DNA of 64,000 nt, taken from the NCBI RefSeq assembly GCF_014084105.1, contig NZ_CP048289.1, positions 5,465,922-5,529,921 on the forward strand. The letters run 5' to 3'. Of this stretch, positions 1 to 36,652 are shown in pieces; within the stretch, counting starts at the first letter, position 1; each line of letters begins with the position of its first letter. A model generated the notes under the pieces. That model saw nothing but the letters and a program-made list of their open reading frames with translations, was not told where the DNA came from and did no database searches. The stretch comes from Streptacidiphilus sp. P02-A3a (GTDB lineage: Bacteria; Actinomycetota; Actinomycetes; Streptomycetales; Streptomycetaceae). The position numbers were made by a program, and so were the translations under genes.

Positions 1-2066
1 CGCCGGGCCGTTGACCGCCGCCACCGACAGCCGTCCGTCCCAGTCCGACAGCAGGTCCTCCACCTCGGCCACCGGCAGGCCGACCGAGGCCATGCCGCCA
101 CCGCCCGCGAGCACCGCCAGCGCCCGGCTGCGCAGTGCCACCACCCGGGCCGCGTCCGGCAACGACAGTGCCCCCGCCACGCAGGCCGCCGCGATCTCGC
201 CCTGCGAATGGCCCACCACCGCGTCCACCGGCAGCCCCAGCTCGCGCCACACCTGGGCCAGCGACACCATCACCGCCCACAGCACCGGTTGCACCACGTC
301 CACCCGCTCCAACGACGCCGCTCCGTCGCGCAGCACCTCGGTCAACGACCAGTCCACGTGGGGCGCCAGAGCCCGTTCGCAGGCGTCGATCCGCTCCGCG
401 AACACCGGCGACCCGCTGAGCAGTGCCGAGCCCATGCCCACCCACTGCGCGCCCTGCCCGGGAAAGACCAGCACGGTCCGCCCGGAGGTTCCCGCCACCC
501 CGGTCACCAGTCCTGGTGCGGGCTGTCCCTCGGCCAACGCACGCAACGCCGAAGTCAGTTGCGTTCGGTCGCCGACTGCCGTCGCCCGCTGGGCCAGCCA
601 CGAGCGGCCGTTGGCGAGGGAGTGGCCGACGTCGGCCGGGTCGAGCTCCGGTTCGGCCGCCAACGCGGCCAGCAGGGCCGAGGCCTGGTCGCGCAGCGCC
701 TCCGGGGTCCGGGCCGACAGCGGCCAGGCGGCGGTCGCACTGACCGGACGCGCGGTGGCCGTCGGCTCGACGGGTTGCTCCAGCACGACGTGGGCGTTGG
801 TGCCGCTGACGCCGAAGGAGGAGACCCCGGCGCGGCGCGGCCGGTCCGCCGCCTCCCACGGACGGGCCTCGGTGAGCAGCCGCACCGCCCCGGCCGACCA
901 GTCCACCTGCGGCGAGGGGGCGTCCACGTGCAGGGTTTTCGGCATCACGCCGTGCCGCATCGCCAGCACGGCCTTGATCACGCCGCCGACCCCGGCCGCC
1001 GCGGAGCTGTGGCCGATGTTGGACTTCAGTGAGCCGAGCCACAACGGGTTTGCCTCGGACCGTTTCTGACCATACGTCGCCAACAGTGCCTCGGCCTCGA
1101 TCGGGTCGCCGAGGCGGGTTCCGGTGCCGTGGCCCTCGACCAGGTCGACCTCGGCGCCGCTGAGTCCGGCGTCCGCCAGCGCCGCCCGGATCACCCGCTG
1201 CTGCGAGGGGCCGTTGGGGGCGGTCAGGCCGTTGCTCGCGCCGTCCTGGTTCACCGCCGAGCCGCGCACCAGCGCGAGTACCGGATGCCCCTTGCGCCGG
1301 GCGTCCGACAGCCGTTCCAGCAGCAGTACGCCCACGCCCTCGCCGAAGCCGGTGCCGTCGGCGGCGTCGGCGAAGGGCTTGCAGCGGCCGTCGGGGGCGA
1401 GGCCGCCCTGACGGCTGAACTCCACGAAGAGCTCCGGGCTGCACATCACGTTGACGCCGCCGGTCAGTGCCATCGTGCACTCGCCGGAGCGCAGCGCGCG
1501 GACTCCCAGGTGCAGCGCCACCAGCGAGGAGGAGCAGGCGGTGTCGACGGTGACCGCCGGACCCTCCAGGCCGAAGAAGTAGGCCAGCCGCCCGGAGACG
1601 ATGCTGCCGGAGTTGCCGGTGCCGAGGAAGCCCTCGACGTCCTCCGGGATGTACGGCAGCAGCCGTGCCGCGTAGTCCTGTTGCATCAGGCCGACGAAGA
1701 CGCCGACCGGGTCGCCGCGCAGCTCGGCCGGGTCGATCCCGGCTCGCTCGAACACCTCCCAGGCCGCCTCCAGCAGCAACCGCTGCTGCGGGTCCATCGC
1801 CAGCGCCTCGCGCGGCGAGATGCCGAAGAACTCCGCGTCGAACTCGGCGGCGTCGTAGAGGAATCCGCCCTGCCGGGTGATCGAGGTACCGGGACCGGCC
1901 GCCGGGTCGGGGTCGTACAGCTCGTCCAACGGCCAGCCGCGGTCGGTCGGGAAGTCGGCGATGCCGTCGGAGCCGGAGGCGACCAGCCGCCACAGGTCCT
2001 CGGGCGAGCGGACACCACCGGGGAACCGGCAGGACATGGCGACGATCGCGATCGGGTCACCGTCTT
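1..2066 (-). other. PKS module 8 (KS-AT, incomplete)
   Basis: The KS begins at [10 protein letters not shown] near 2060, has VDTACSSS near 1545 and [10 protein letters not shown] near 800. The AT opens with GQGAQWVGM near 455 and [10 protein letters not shown] near 205, then is cut by the window edge before its YASH-type motif. GHSQG favours methylmalonyl-CoA. In the bafilomycin scheme this module would add C7-C8 and carry DH-ER-KR; those domains, if present, lie outside the window. Confidence 0.85.
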
Positions 2067-34600: not shown

Positions 34601-36652
34601 CCCGGTGCGGCTGCCGCGCAACGTGGTCGGGTCGATTCCGGCCCGCTCGAACATCTCCCAACTGGTCTCCAGCAGCAGCCGCTGCTGCGGGTCCATCGCC
34701 AGCGCCTCACGCGGCGAGACGCCGAAGAACTCCGCGTCGAACTCGGTTGCCTGGCCCAGGAATCCGGCCTCACGCTGGTAGAACCGGCCGGGGGTGCCGG
34801 GGGTTGCCGCATAACCGCCCCGGGTGTCCCAGCCACGGTCCTCCGGGAATGCTGACACCGCGTCAACTTCGTTGACCAGTAGCTGCCAGAGCCCCTCCGG
34901 GTCACCCACTCCGCCGGGATAGCGGCAGCCCATGCCGACGATCACGATCGGATCGTCGTCCGCTGCCCGCACCGGCGGCACCGCCTCCGCTGCGACGTCG
35001 GGCCCGGTACCCAGCAGCGCCCGACCCAGGAACGCCGCCAGGGCGGCCGGAGTCGGATGGTCGAAGGCAGCCGTGGCCGGGATCCGCAGTTCGGTTGCCG
35101 CGCTCAGCCGGTTGCGCAACTCGACCGCCGTGACCGAGTCCAGGCCCAGGTCGAGGAAGGCCGCGTGCTCCGGCAGCGGGCCGGGCCGCCCGGTCAGCGC
35201 CGCCACCTCGCCGACCACCAGCGCGAGCAGCGCGGCACGTTGCTCCACCGGCGTCAGCCCCGCCAACTCCTCGGCCGGCGAAGGGAACGACGCGTCGTCA
35301 CCGGGGGGCTGCCGATCCGCGTCGAACAGCTCGACGACATCGAGGGCGTCGACGGCTCCGCCGTCGGCCGACGACCCGTGTCCGGCGAACACCGCGTCCC
35401 AGTCCGGTTCCTGGCCGCGCACGCACAACTCCCCCAGCGCGCCGAGGAACTGGTCCTTGCCGCCCCGGGCACGGCGCAGCGTGCCCAGGACCAGGGCGTC
35501 CGCGCCGCTGTCCTCGACGCAGTCCCGCATCGCCGAGGTCAGCACGGTGTGCGGACTGACCTCCAGCAGCACCCCGAGGCCGTCGCGCAGCAGGGCCCGG
35601 GTGGCCTGCTCGAAGCGGACGGTACCGCGCAGGTTGCGGCACCAGTAGTCGGCGTCCAGCACCGGATCGGGCAGCAGGTCGCCGGTCAGCGCCGAGTAGT
35701 ACGGCAGCCGTCCCTGACGGGGCCGGACGGGGGCCAGATCGGTGCGCAGCCTGGGCAGGATGCGGTCGATGTGCGGGGAGTGGGCGGCCAGGCCCACGGC
35801 TATCCGCCGCGCGTGCACCCCGCTCCGGCCGAGCTCGGTGAGCAGTTCCCCGGCCGCGTCGGCGTCGCCGGAGACGATCACCGACCGGGGGCCGTTCACG
35901 GCCGCGAGGACCAGCCGGCCTGCCCAGGGCTCCAGCCACCGGCCCAGTTCGTCGGGGGCGGCCATGACCGAGACCATCTCGCCGCGTCCGGCCAGCGTGG
36001 CCTGGGCCTGGCTCCAGAGCGCCACCACCCGCGCCGCGTCGTCCAGGGTCAGCGCCTCGGCGACGACCGCGGCGCTGATCTCGCCGACGCTGTGCCCGAG
36101 CACCGCCGCCGGTTCCACACCGTGCTGCCGCCAGAGCGCGGCCAGCGACAGGGTGACCGCGAACAGCGCGGGCTGGACGACGTCCGCCCGGTCGAGCTCG
36201 GACGTCGGCGCGGGGTCCCGCAGCAGGTCGAGCAGTGCCCAGTCCAGGTGCGGCTCCAGTGCCTGCGCGCACTCGTCCATCCGGCTCCGGAACACCGCGG
36301 AGGTCTCCAGCAGCTCGGCCGCCATCCCCGGCCACTGCGCCCCCTGCCCGGGGAAGACGAAGGCGACCTCGCCACCGGCCGCGCCGCCCTCGACCAGCCC
36401 GGGCGCGCCCCGGCCGTCGGCCAGCGCGCCCAGCAGGTCCAGGAAGCCCTCCCGGCTGTCGGCGACCAGCGCGGCCCGGCGCGGGGCGGCGGGAGCGGCC
36501 CCGGCCAGGGACCGGCCGACGTCCGCCGGGTGCCAGTGCGGCCGCTCGGACAGCCGCTCGCGCAGCCGTCGCGCCCGGGCCGCCAGCGCCTGCCTGCCGT
36601 CGCCGCCCAGCAACCACAGCAGTGGGGATCCGGTACCGGTTGGCTGCACCAT
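22376..36652 (-). CDS. modular type I polyketide synthase, loading AT-ACP and modules 1-3
   Basis: First protein of the assembly line, 4758 residues. ATG 36652 has a strong AAGGAGCT ribosome site (36663-36670). There is no KSQ: the protein opens with a loading AT (GQGAQWPGM about 102, GHSVGEIS about 187) and ACP (LGLDSV about 503). Then KS1 (Cys about 736)-AT1 (GHSQG about 1189, YASH about 1287)-KR1 (Tyr about 1869)-ACP1 (about 2042); KS2 (about 2274)-AT2 (GHSIG about 2731, HAFH about 2833)-KR2 (Tyr about 3425)-ACP2 (about 3606); KS3 (about 3837)-AT3 (GHSQG about 4288, YAAH about 4387)-ACP3 (GFDSM about 4629). A C-terminal docking tail ends [11 protein letters not shown]. The gene is divergent from egtA across 253 bases. 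Confidence 0.97.
25665..30351 (-). other. PKS module 2: KS-AT(malonyl)-KR(A1-type)-ACP
   Basis: AT2 carries GHSIG near 28458 and VSHAFHS near 28152, the malonyl-CoA signature, and its opening motif is [10 protein letters not shown]2 has RSSDTP in place of LDD, Trp in SATWGS, and Gln (not His) three residues before the catalytic Tyr in GGQGSY near 26378, giving an A1-type prediction. ACP2 GFDSLTAVE near 25835. The expected product is an unsubstituted beta-hydroxy unit. Confidence 0.9.
32627..33368 (-). repeat. AT1 recombination tract, near-identical copy in AT4
   Basis: Partner of the tract at 19930-20677. Boundaries are set where the two sequences abruptly diverge: just before [11 protein letters not shown] on one side and shortly after YWYRNLRQ on the other. 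Relative to AT4 this copy lacks two codons near 32920-32935. G/T-ending codons run from end to end on the coding strand. Confidence 0.9.
34072..34246 (-). repeat. KS1 recombination patch, identical copy in KS4
   Basis: Partner of 21378-21552, at a constant offset of 12694 bases. It ends sharply at the codons for VGVLLLERL, where KS1 continues with AEGVG and KS4 with SEGVG written in different codons. Confidence 0.85.
34968..36652 (-). other. PKS loading didomain AT-ACP
   Basis: An AT of about 450 residues with [10 protein letters not shown] near 36090 instead of the GHSQG or GHSIG of the extender ATs, followed by an ACP with LGLDSVTAV near 35142. There is no KSQ decarboxylase domain, so the starter is taken directly as an acyl-CoA, as in erythromycin, avermectin and bafilomycin synthases. 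The starter itself (isobutyryl, propionyl or other) cannot be read from the sequence; isobutyryl would fit the bafilomycin model. Confidence 0.85.

Follow-up and report, generated by a model that had tools for sequence, protein, structure and literature searches.

Streptacidiphilus sp. P02-A3a, whose 9.33-Mb genome is assembled in a single contig, carries a large modular polyketide synthase (PKS) that runs out of the left edge of the stretch analysed here, 64,000 nucleotides of contig NZ_CP048289.1 (positions 5,465,922 to 5,529,921; hereafter the window). The question raised by this locus is which polyketide the enzyme makes. We conclude with high confidence that the window covers the right-hand half of a type I PKS cluster of the bafilomycin (hygrolide, 16-membered plecomacrolide) type, for which we propose a biosynthetic pathway. 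Apart from the ketosynthase (KS) of its last module, the cluster is complete in gene content and adds a new relative to a cluster family that is already well known. Bafilomycin PKS clusters have been published for Streptomyces griseus DSM 2608, Streptomyces lohii and Kitasatospora setae; the bafilomycin-side sequences compared here are those of Kitasatospora cheerisanensis KCTC 2395 and, by kinship, Streptomyces uncialis.

Modules and accessory genes of the cluster

Three large minus-strand PKS frames occupy window positions 1-36652. Their features, as called from Pfam matches and acyltransferase (AT) motifs, are:

34955..36652, minus strand: start of PKS I, loading module AT-ACP (566 aa; Pfam AT and PP-binding, AT motifs GHSVG and VGLAAH)
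30344..34954, minus strand: module 1, KS-AT(methylmalonyl, YASH)-KR-ACP (Pfam and AT motifs)
25655..30343, minus strand: module 2, KS-AT(malonyl, HAFH)-KR-ACP (Pfam and AT motifs)
22376..25654, minus strand: module 3, KS-AT(methylmalonyl, YAAH)-ACP with no KR, closing PKS I (Pfam and AT motifs)
7420..22359, minus strand: PKS II, modules 4 (YASH, KR), 5 (FAGH, KR) and 6 (HAFH, DH, KR) (Pfam; ATG start at 22359)
12931..17610, minus strand: module 5 within PKS II, methoxymalonyl-type AT with LSW...FAGH (AT signature)
1..7404, minus strand: PKS III within the window, module 7 KS-AT-DH-KR-ACP followed by the first part of module 8 (Pfam)

PKS I (22376-36652) comprises 4758 aa. The Pfam matches, of which those to the ACPs are the weakest of the named domains at about 4e-11, rule out that these domains were mis-called or arose by chance. 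The ATs of modules 1, 4 and 7 carry GHSQG and YASH, module 3 GHSQG and YAAH, module 5 GHSQG and FAGH, and the loading AT GHSVG and LAAH; GHSIG with the malonyl-type HAFH is found in modules 2 and 6, to which HAFH is confined within the cluster. The loading AT falls into a clade of five loading ATs (this cluster, K. cheerisanensis, S. uncialis, Streptomyces varsoviensis and the same-genus genome G019; support 100/95), and we infer from this kinship that it is of the isobutyryl type.

PKS III leaves the window at its left edge, and genome stretch 5398001-5472000 was taken for the analysis of its continuation. Module 8 (KS-AT-DH-ER-KR-ACP, ER motif HSAAGGVG) closes PKS III at 5461635. PKS IV (5461627-5451410, 3405 aa) contains modules 9 and 10, and PKS V contains module 11 and a thioesterase (TE). 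The whole assembly line thus consists of a loading module and 11 extension modules on five proteins in a 3/3/2/2/1 arrangement. Pfam detects no reductive domain in module 3, DH-KR in modules 6, 7, 10 and 11, DH-ER-KR in module 8, and KR in each of the remaining modules. The same five-protein layout is described for the bafilomycin PKS of S. griseus (PMC3679948).

Directly left of PKS V, still on the minus strand, lie genes for a 3-hydroxyacyl-CoA dehydrogenase, an ACP, an acyl-CoA dehydrogenase and FkbH (358 bits against a profile cut-off of 147). Next come three plus-strand genes, for an O-methyltransferase, a regulator of the AfsR type and a metallophosphoesterase. Further left, the minus strand again carries the genes, here for a type II thioesterase, a LuxR-type protein of 133 aa, and the Orf2 and Orf3 homologues. 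All eight bafilomycin-type loci compared keep the order and orientation TE, 3-hydroxyacyl-CoA dehydrogenase, acyl-CoA dehydrogenase, FkbH, O-methyltransferase (opposite), AfsR (opposite), type II thioesterase, so we dropped the idea that the opposite strand of the O-methyltransferase and AfsR genes is peculiar to this cluster. Orf2 and Orf3 follow the type II thioesterase in seven of the eight; their homologues were not found in the flank of the Kitasatospora purpeofusca locus (L037). The metallophosphoesterase is shared with two loci (S. uncialis and Streptacidiphilus sp. 4-A2) and sets the cluster apart from the six others. With bafilomycin clusters our cluster has in common the loading module and 3/3/2/2/1 arrangement, the domain order, the methoxymalonyl genes, the type II thioesterase and the fumarylation pair Orf2/Orf3.

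An earlier sequence-only reading of the window had proposed the first half of a bafilomycin/hygrolidin-type plecomacrolide PKS. Its domain order from the loading module to module 7 agrees with Pfam and the AT motifs, and the protein breaks it placed after modules 3 and 6 correspond to stops at 22376 and 7420. Its assignment of module 8 to methylmalonyl was right in that the AT carries YASH, but this motif is located some 90 bases beyond the left edge of the window, inside which only GHSQG of that AT can be read. What it expected left of position 1, namely modules 8-11 with DH-ER-KR in module 8, a TE and methoxymalonyl-ACP genes (here those for 3-hydroxyacyl-CoA dehydrogenase, ACP, acyl-CoA dehydrogenase, FkbH and O-methyltransferase), is all present on the same contig and, together with the KS tree described below, supports the proposal.

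Ketosynthase phylogeny and predicted product

Comparison loci were obtained by a search of genome contigs with FkbH, retaining the best 80 of at least 575 relatives. Full PKS stretches were compared for K. cheerisanensis KCTC 2395, S. uncialis, S. varsoviensis NRRL ISP-5346, Streptomyces scabiei (concanamycin) and G019; the Kitasatospora griseola included in the comparisons is strain JCM 3339 and not the MF730-N6 of PMC4384148. K. cheerisanensis KCTC 2395 is reported to make bafilomycin derivatives (PMC4064034), and S. varsoviensis NRRL ISP-5346 bafilomycins C1 and D as well as hygrobafilomycins (PMC7385001). In a KS tree of 92 rows, all 11 KS of the cluster fall into position-specific clades of five rows each (support 99-100 / 90-100), which consist of the cluster, K. 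cheerisanensis, S. uncialis, S. varsoviensis and G019. For 10 of these clades, all but that of KS1, the concanamycin KS of the matching position is next. None of 23 other KS from the same genome (the 30 best loci minus 7 of the cluster itself; the genome has 77 KS hits in total) lies inside the cluster clades. A closer grouping with another macrolide class, which the sequence-only reading had named as evidence that would speak against it, is ruled out by the tree for the classes tested (concanamycin and the 23 own-genome KS), as 11 of 11 KS group position by position with bafilomycin-type PKSs.

In the pathway that we propose, the AT-ACP module would load an isobutyryl unit, which the eleven modules would then extend in the order methylmalonyl, malonyl, two methylmalonyl, methoxymalonyl, malonyl, four methylmalonyl and methoxymalonyl, with the FkbH/ACP/dehydrogenase/O-methyltransferase set providing methoxymalonyl-ACP for modules 5 and 11. 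In S. griseus, disruption of FkbH is reported to have abolished the bafilomycin product (PMC3679948). The KR, DH and ER domains stand at the positions that bafilomycin A1 requires. The C19 ketone left by module 3 would go on to form the hemiketal, the ER of module 8 would yield a saturated C9, the KR of module 9 the C7 hydroxyl, and the DH-KR pairs of modules 10 and 11 the double bonds C4=C5 and C2=C3, before the TE closes the 16-membered lactone. Set against the structure of bafilomycin, with which the positions listed in the sequence-only reading agree, the extender and reduction of each module fit C25 to C1, which extends the module-by-module fit that had been proposed for the window. Each KR also agrees in presence or absence of the LDD motif with its position equivalents in K. 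cheerisanensis, S. uncialis and S. varsoviensis, as far as the motif is readable; the exceptions in this respect are KR4 of the first two and KR1 of the third. The product would be expected to inhibit the vacuolar-type ATPase.

Two features bear on the congeners to be expected. S. lohii Orf3 and Orf2 are reported to attach a fumaryl group to C21 (PMC7827423). Orf2 and Orf3 of the cluster are 75-78% and 79-80% identical, respectively, to those of six bafilomycin-type loci; neither Orf2 nor a partial Orf3 matched a Pfam family, and Orf2 is weakly FabD-like in NCBIfam. These homologues would fumarylate the C21 hydroxyl to give bafilomycin C1. The second feature is the C5N branch. The genome contains no 5-aminolevulinate (ALA) synthase above the TIGR01821 cut-off of 339; its best matches score 293 and 223 bits and were rejected as C5N-type enzymes. 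The former passes the cut-off for glycine C-acetyltransferase, and the latter is a BioF-like protein that falls just short of the cut-off for its own family. As a control, K. cheerisanensis has an ALA synthase of 536 bits on the same profile, with two ligase-type proteins, beside PKS I. Unlike bafilomycin clusters, this one has no ALA synthase/ligase pair beside PKS I (no genome-wide search was made for the ligases), its place being taken by the ergothioneine genes egtA-D; the S. varsoviensis cluster is similar in showing no ALA synthase-like match in the 14 kb examined upstream of its PKS I. Because the fumarylation genes are present and a C5N-type ALA synthase is absent, we predict products of the A1/C1 type and not bafilomycin B1. 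For bafilomycin A1 (C35H58O9) an [M+Na]+ near 645.40 is printed in PMC11117518; for C1 (C39H60O12) the calculated value is near 743.40, and 2-methyl, hygrolidin-type products would be 16 Da lighter.

Three observations weigh against this assignment, and two of them concern KS11. In BLAST searches, the KS11 piece matches S. uncialis at 82.8% identity, S. scabiei at 82.6% and K. cheerisanensis at 81.9%. It is about equally like its concanamycin and K. cheerisanensis counterparts, and only the tree separates them. A concanamycin-type (18-membered) plecomacrolide would further accord with S. scabiei KS4-KS14 being the next-nearest relatives of cluster KS2-KS11 and with the concanamycin-like lineage of AT11. 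However, the S. scabiei stretch has 14 KS, whereas the cluster has only 11 extension modules behind an AT-ACP loading module, and no further modules lie upstream of PKS I, where the opposite strand carries the start of egtA at a distance of about 250 bases. The concanamycin cluster (S. scabiei / Streptomyces neyagawaensis) shares methoxymalonyl-type ATs at the equivalent positions. It is described with six PKS genes and with ethylmalonyl and sugar genes (PMC12648119). Since every cluster KS is also nearer to a bafilomycin-type than to a concanamycin KS in the tree, we reject a concanamycin identity on KS number and phylogeny and consider it extremely improbable.

The bafilomycin-type assignment must also accommodate the state of KS11, which lies on two overlapping minus-strand frames (L032:16504-17624, genome 5450504-5451624). 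The two pieces, searched apart against relatives, meet at one point, and PKS V, taken as sequenced, may not be functional. If KS11 were truly frame-shifted, the cluster would be decayed and no finished macrolide would be made; in line with this, no second such adjacent pair of partial KS occurs among the 77 listed. On the other hand, the remainder of the 57-kb PKS is open, and the active-site motif of KS11 and the other domains of PKS V are intact. A second frame break affects egtB, for which decay alongside the PKS would not be expected, and PKS genes of two same-genus genomes seem to be frame-broken elsewhere, consistent with assembly noise. Because the neighbouring egtB is also frame-broken, an assembly error in KS11 is plausible, if unproven, and we regard decay as unlikely. 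The third observation is that DH6 and DH10 carry D instead of G in HxxxGxxxxP. The same replacement is present in DH6 of G019 and DH10 of S. varsoviensis, and DH6 of K. cheerisanensis, S. uncialis and S. varsoviensis does not match the pattern at all. Because relatives share the D or fail the pattern, we do not read it as a loss of function.

The acyltransferase of module 11

Position 2 of the macrolide bears a methyl group in hygrolidin and a methoxy group in concanamycin, so the substrate of AT11 would distinguish a bafilomycin (2-methoxy) from a hygrolidin-type product with the same backbone, in which module 11 takes methylmalonyl-CoA. AT11 of the cluster reads MAW(X)5HASH, and the hygrolidin-type signature RxR(X)5YASH is absent from it. 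A signature of the MxW/LxW type has been published for methoxymalonyl-ACP ATs (quoted in PMC4207774). Among our aligned sequences, methylmalonyl-position ATs show RxR in 40 of 41 cases and RxQ in one, and ATs of the module 5 type LxW (5/6) or MxW (1/6). The last-module clade that includes this cluster shows MxW (10/13) or MxF (3/13), while Kitasatospora-type AT11s show WxT (4/6), WxS (1/6) or RxR (1/6). The domain order is identical in hygrolidin-type synthases, HASH is not the textbook methoxymalonyl tetrad, and S. uncialis demonstrates that an RxR-type AT11 occurs in the family. However, the cluster AT11 lies in a 13-row clade (100/100) with concanamycin-type last ATs, apart from the 41 methylmalonyl ATs. 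Because AT11 carries the methoxymalonyl-ACP signature, we favour bafilomycin over hygrolidin, between which the sequence-only reading had not decided, and a 2-methyl product appears rather improbable.

AT11 of this cluster, G019 and S. varsoviensis belongs to the 13-row clade, and in this the cluster is unlike most other bafilomycin-type clusters examined, whose AT11 derives from a methylmalonyl AT: that of Kitasatospora, S. uncialis and Streptomyces halstedii (6 rows, 100/99) nests among methylmalonyl ATs. Further stretches from Orf2-bearing genomes yielded AT11 in nine of ten cases, all nine with WxT or WxS; three of them repeat K. cheerisanensis, K. griseola and Kitasatospora sp. CB01950, and six are new. 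The tenth stretch (L177, from G270) yielded no KS11, TE or AT. The hygrobafilomycin / bafilomycin C1, D cluster of S. varsoviensis resembles ours in position-wise KS orthology, in most ATs and in its AT11 clade, but its PKS V AT11 (L129) has GHGPG in place of the catalytic GHSxG in an open frame. In-trans loading by another AT would be one explanation for the lack of a catalytic serine in a reported producer. A second apparent serine-less AT11 (in G172) proved to be a false alarm of the pattern match.

The ATs of modules 1, 4, 8 and 10 form a separate clade in each lineage (this cluster 100/98, G019 100/97, K. cheerisanensis 100/99, S. uncialis 100/94), while the KS of the same modules stay position-orthologous. 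The S. varsoviensis counterparts instead cluster with AT7 of that PKS, at weaker support (86/79); the module 1 AT of this strain was not recovered above 250 aa and its module 8 AT is garbled, and this draft may be misassembled in places. A DNA comparison within the cluster locates a shared tract:

32742..33341, minus strand: AT1 end of the AT1/AT4 shared tract (DNA comparison)
20051..20650, minus strand: AT4 end of the AT1/AT4 shared tract (DNA comparison)

The tract extends over about 600 nt at 98-100% identity, with copies 32919-33218 and 20228-20527 at 98%. Outside it, 200-nt windows are 58-78% identical, apart from two in the KS (84% and 95%) and one at the tract edge (86%). We interpret the tract as a probable product of gene conversion; concerted evolution of ATs without their KS has been described in general (PMC4256081).

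These patterns suggest a tentative scenario, on which our judgement is nearly divided and leans slightly against, that the methoxymalonyl AT of module 11 arose twice in bafilomycin synthases. This cluster, G019 and the concanamycin group would keep one lineage (MxW or MxF in 13/13 rows). In Kitasatospora and several other bafilomycin-type clusters of Streptomycetaceae, a methylmalonyl AT of the same PKS, like AT1/4/8/10, would have overwritten AT11 by gene conversion, and the overwritten domain would then have regained methoxymalonyl use through WxT or WxS replacing RxR. S. uncialis AT11 (L036:3002-3955) retains RxR, unlike the other five of the six Kitasatospora-type AT11s, and would predict a 2-methyl, hygrolidin-type product. 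S. griseus AT12 is described as resembling methylmalonyl ATs, with no significant sequence difference found in that study (PMC3679948); the WxT/WxS change is a candidate for this difference. If AT11 did arise twice, a few residues of one domain would set the difference between bafilomycin and hygrolidin, and this clue to the evolution of building-block choice is the main value that the cluster adds beyond its identification.

Ergothioneine neighbours and distribution in the genus

The genes divergent from PKS I, which we think are neighbours outside the macrolide pathway, are:

36906..41475, plus strand: ergothioneine genes egtA, egtB (frame-broken), an egtC-like frame and egtD (TIGR03444 and TIGR03438 over cut-off)

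The break in egtB (window 38213-39582) separates residues 2-138 of the FGE-sulfatase profile in one frame from 142-255 in another. The egtC-like frame matched no Pfam family and is named from its position. This egtA is the only one found in the genome. It is 79-81% identical to egtA of two other carriers of the PKS and 62-65% identical to that of 11 same-genus genomes without Orf2, and rpoB is 96-99% identical across same-genus genomes. It may be that the PKS and the egt genes moved together; EgtD of the window is only 49% and 52% identical to that of G019 and G020.

Orf2 occurs in 3 of 14 same-genus genomes, namely P02-A3a, G019 and G020, the remaining 11 having been screened for the cluster by Orf2 alone. 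G019 and G020 contain the same PKS cluster with egt genes adjoining PKS I. In the family, 19 of 394 genomes have Orf2, and 12 besides our own match at 73% identity or more. A limited literature search turned up no earlier report of a bafilomycin-type cluster in Streptacidiphilus; our analysis places the pathway in this genus and indicates which congeners to expect.

The P02-A3a genome contains other PKS loci. A very large region at 3937797-4108557 holds 33 KS domain matches across 171 kb, and more PKS regions lie at about 6.01-6.04 and 6.68-6.73 Mb.

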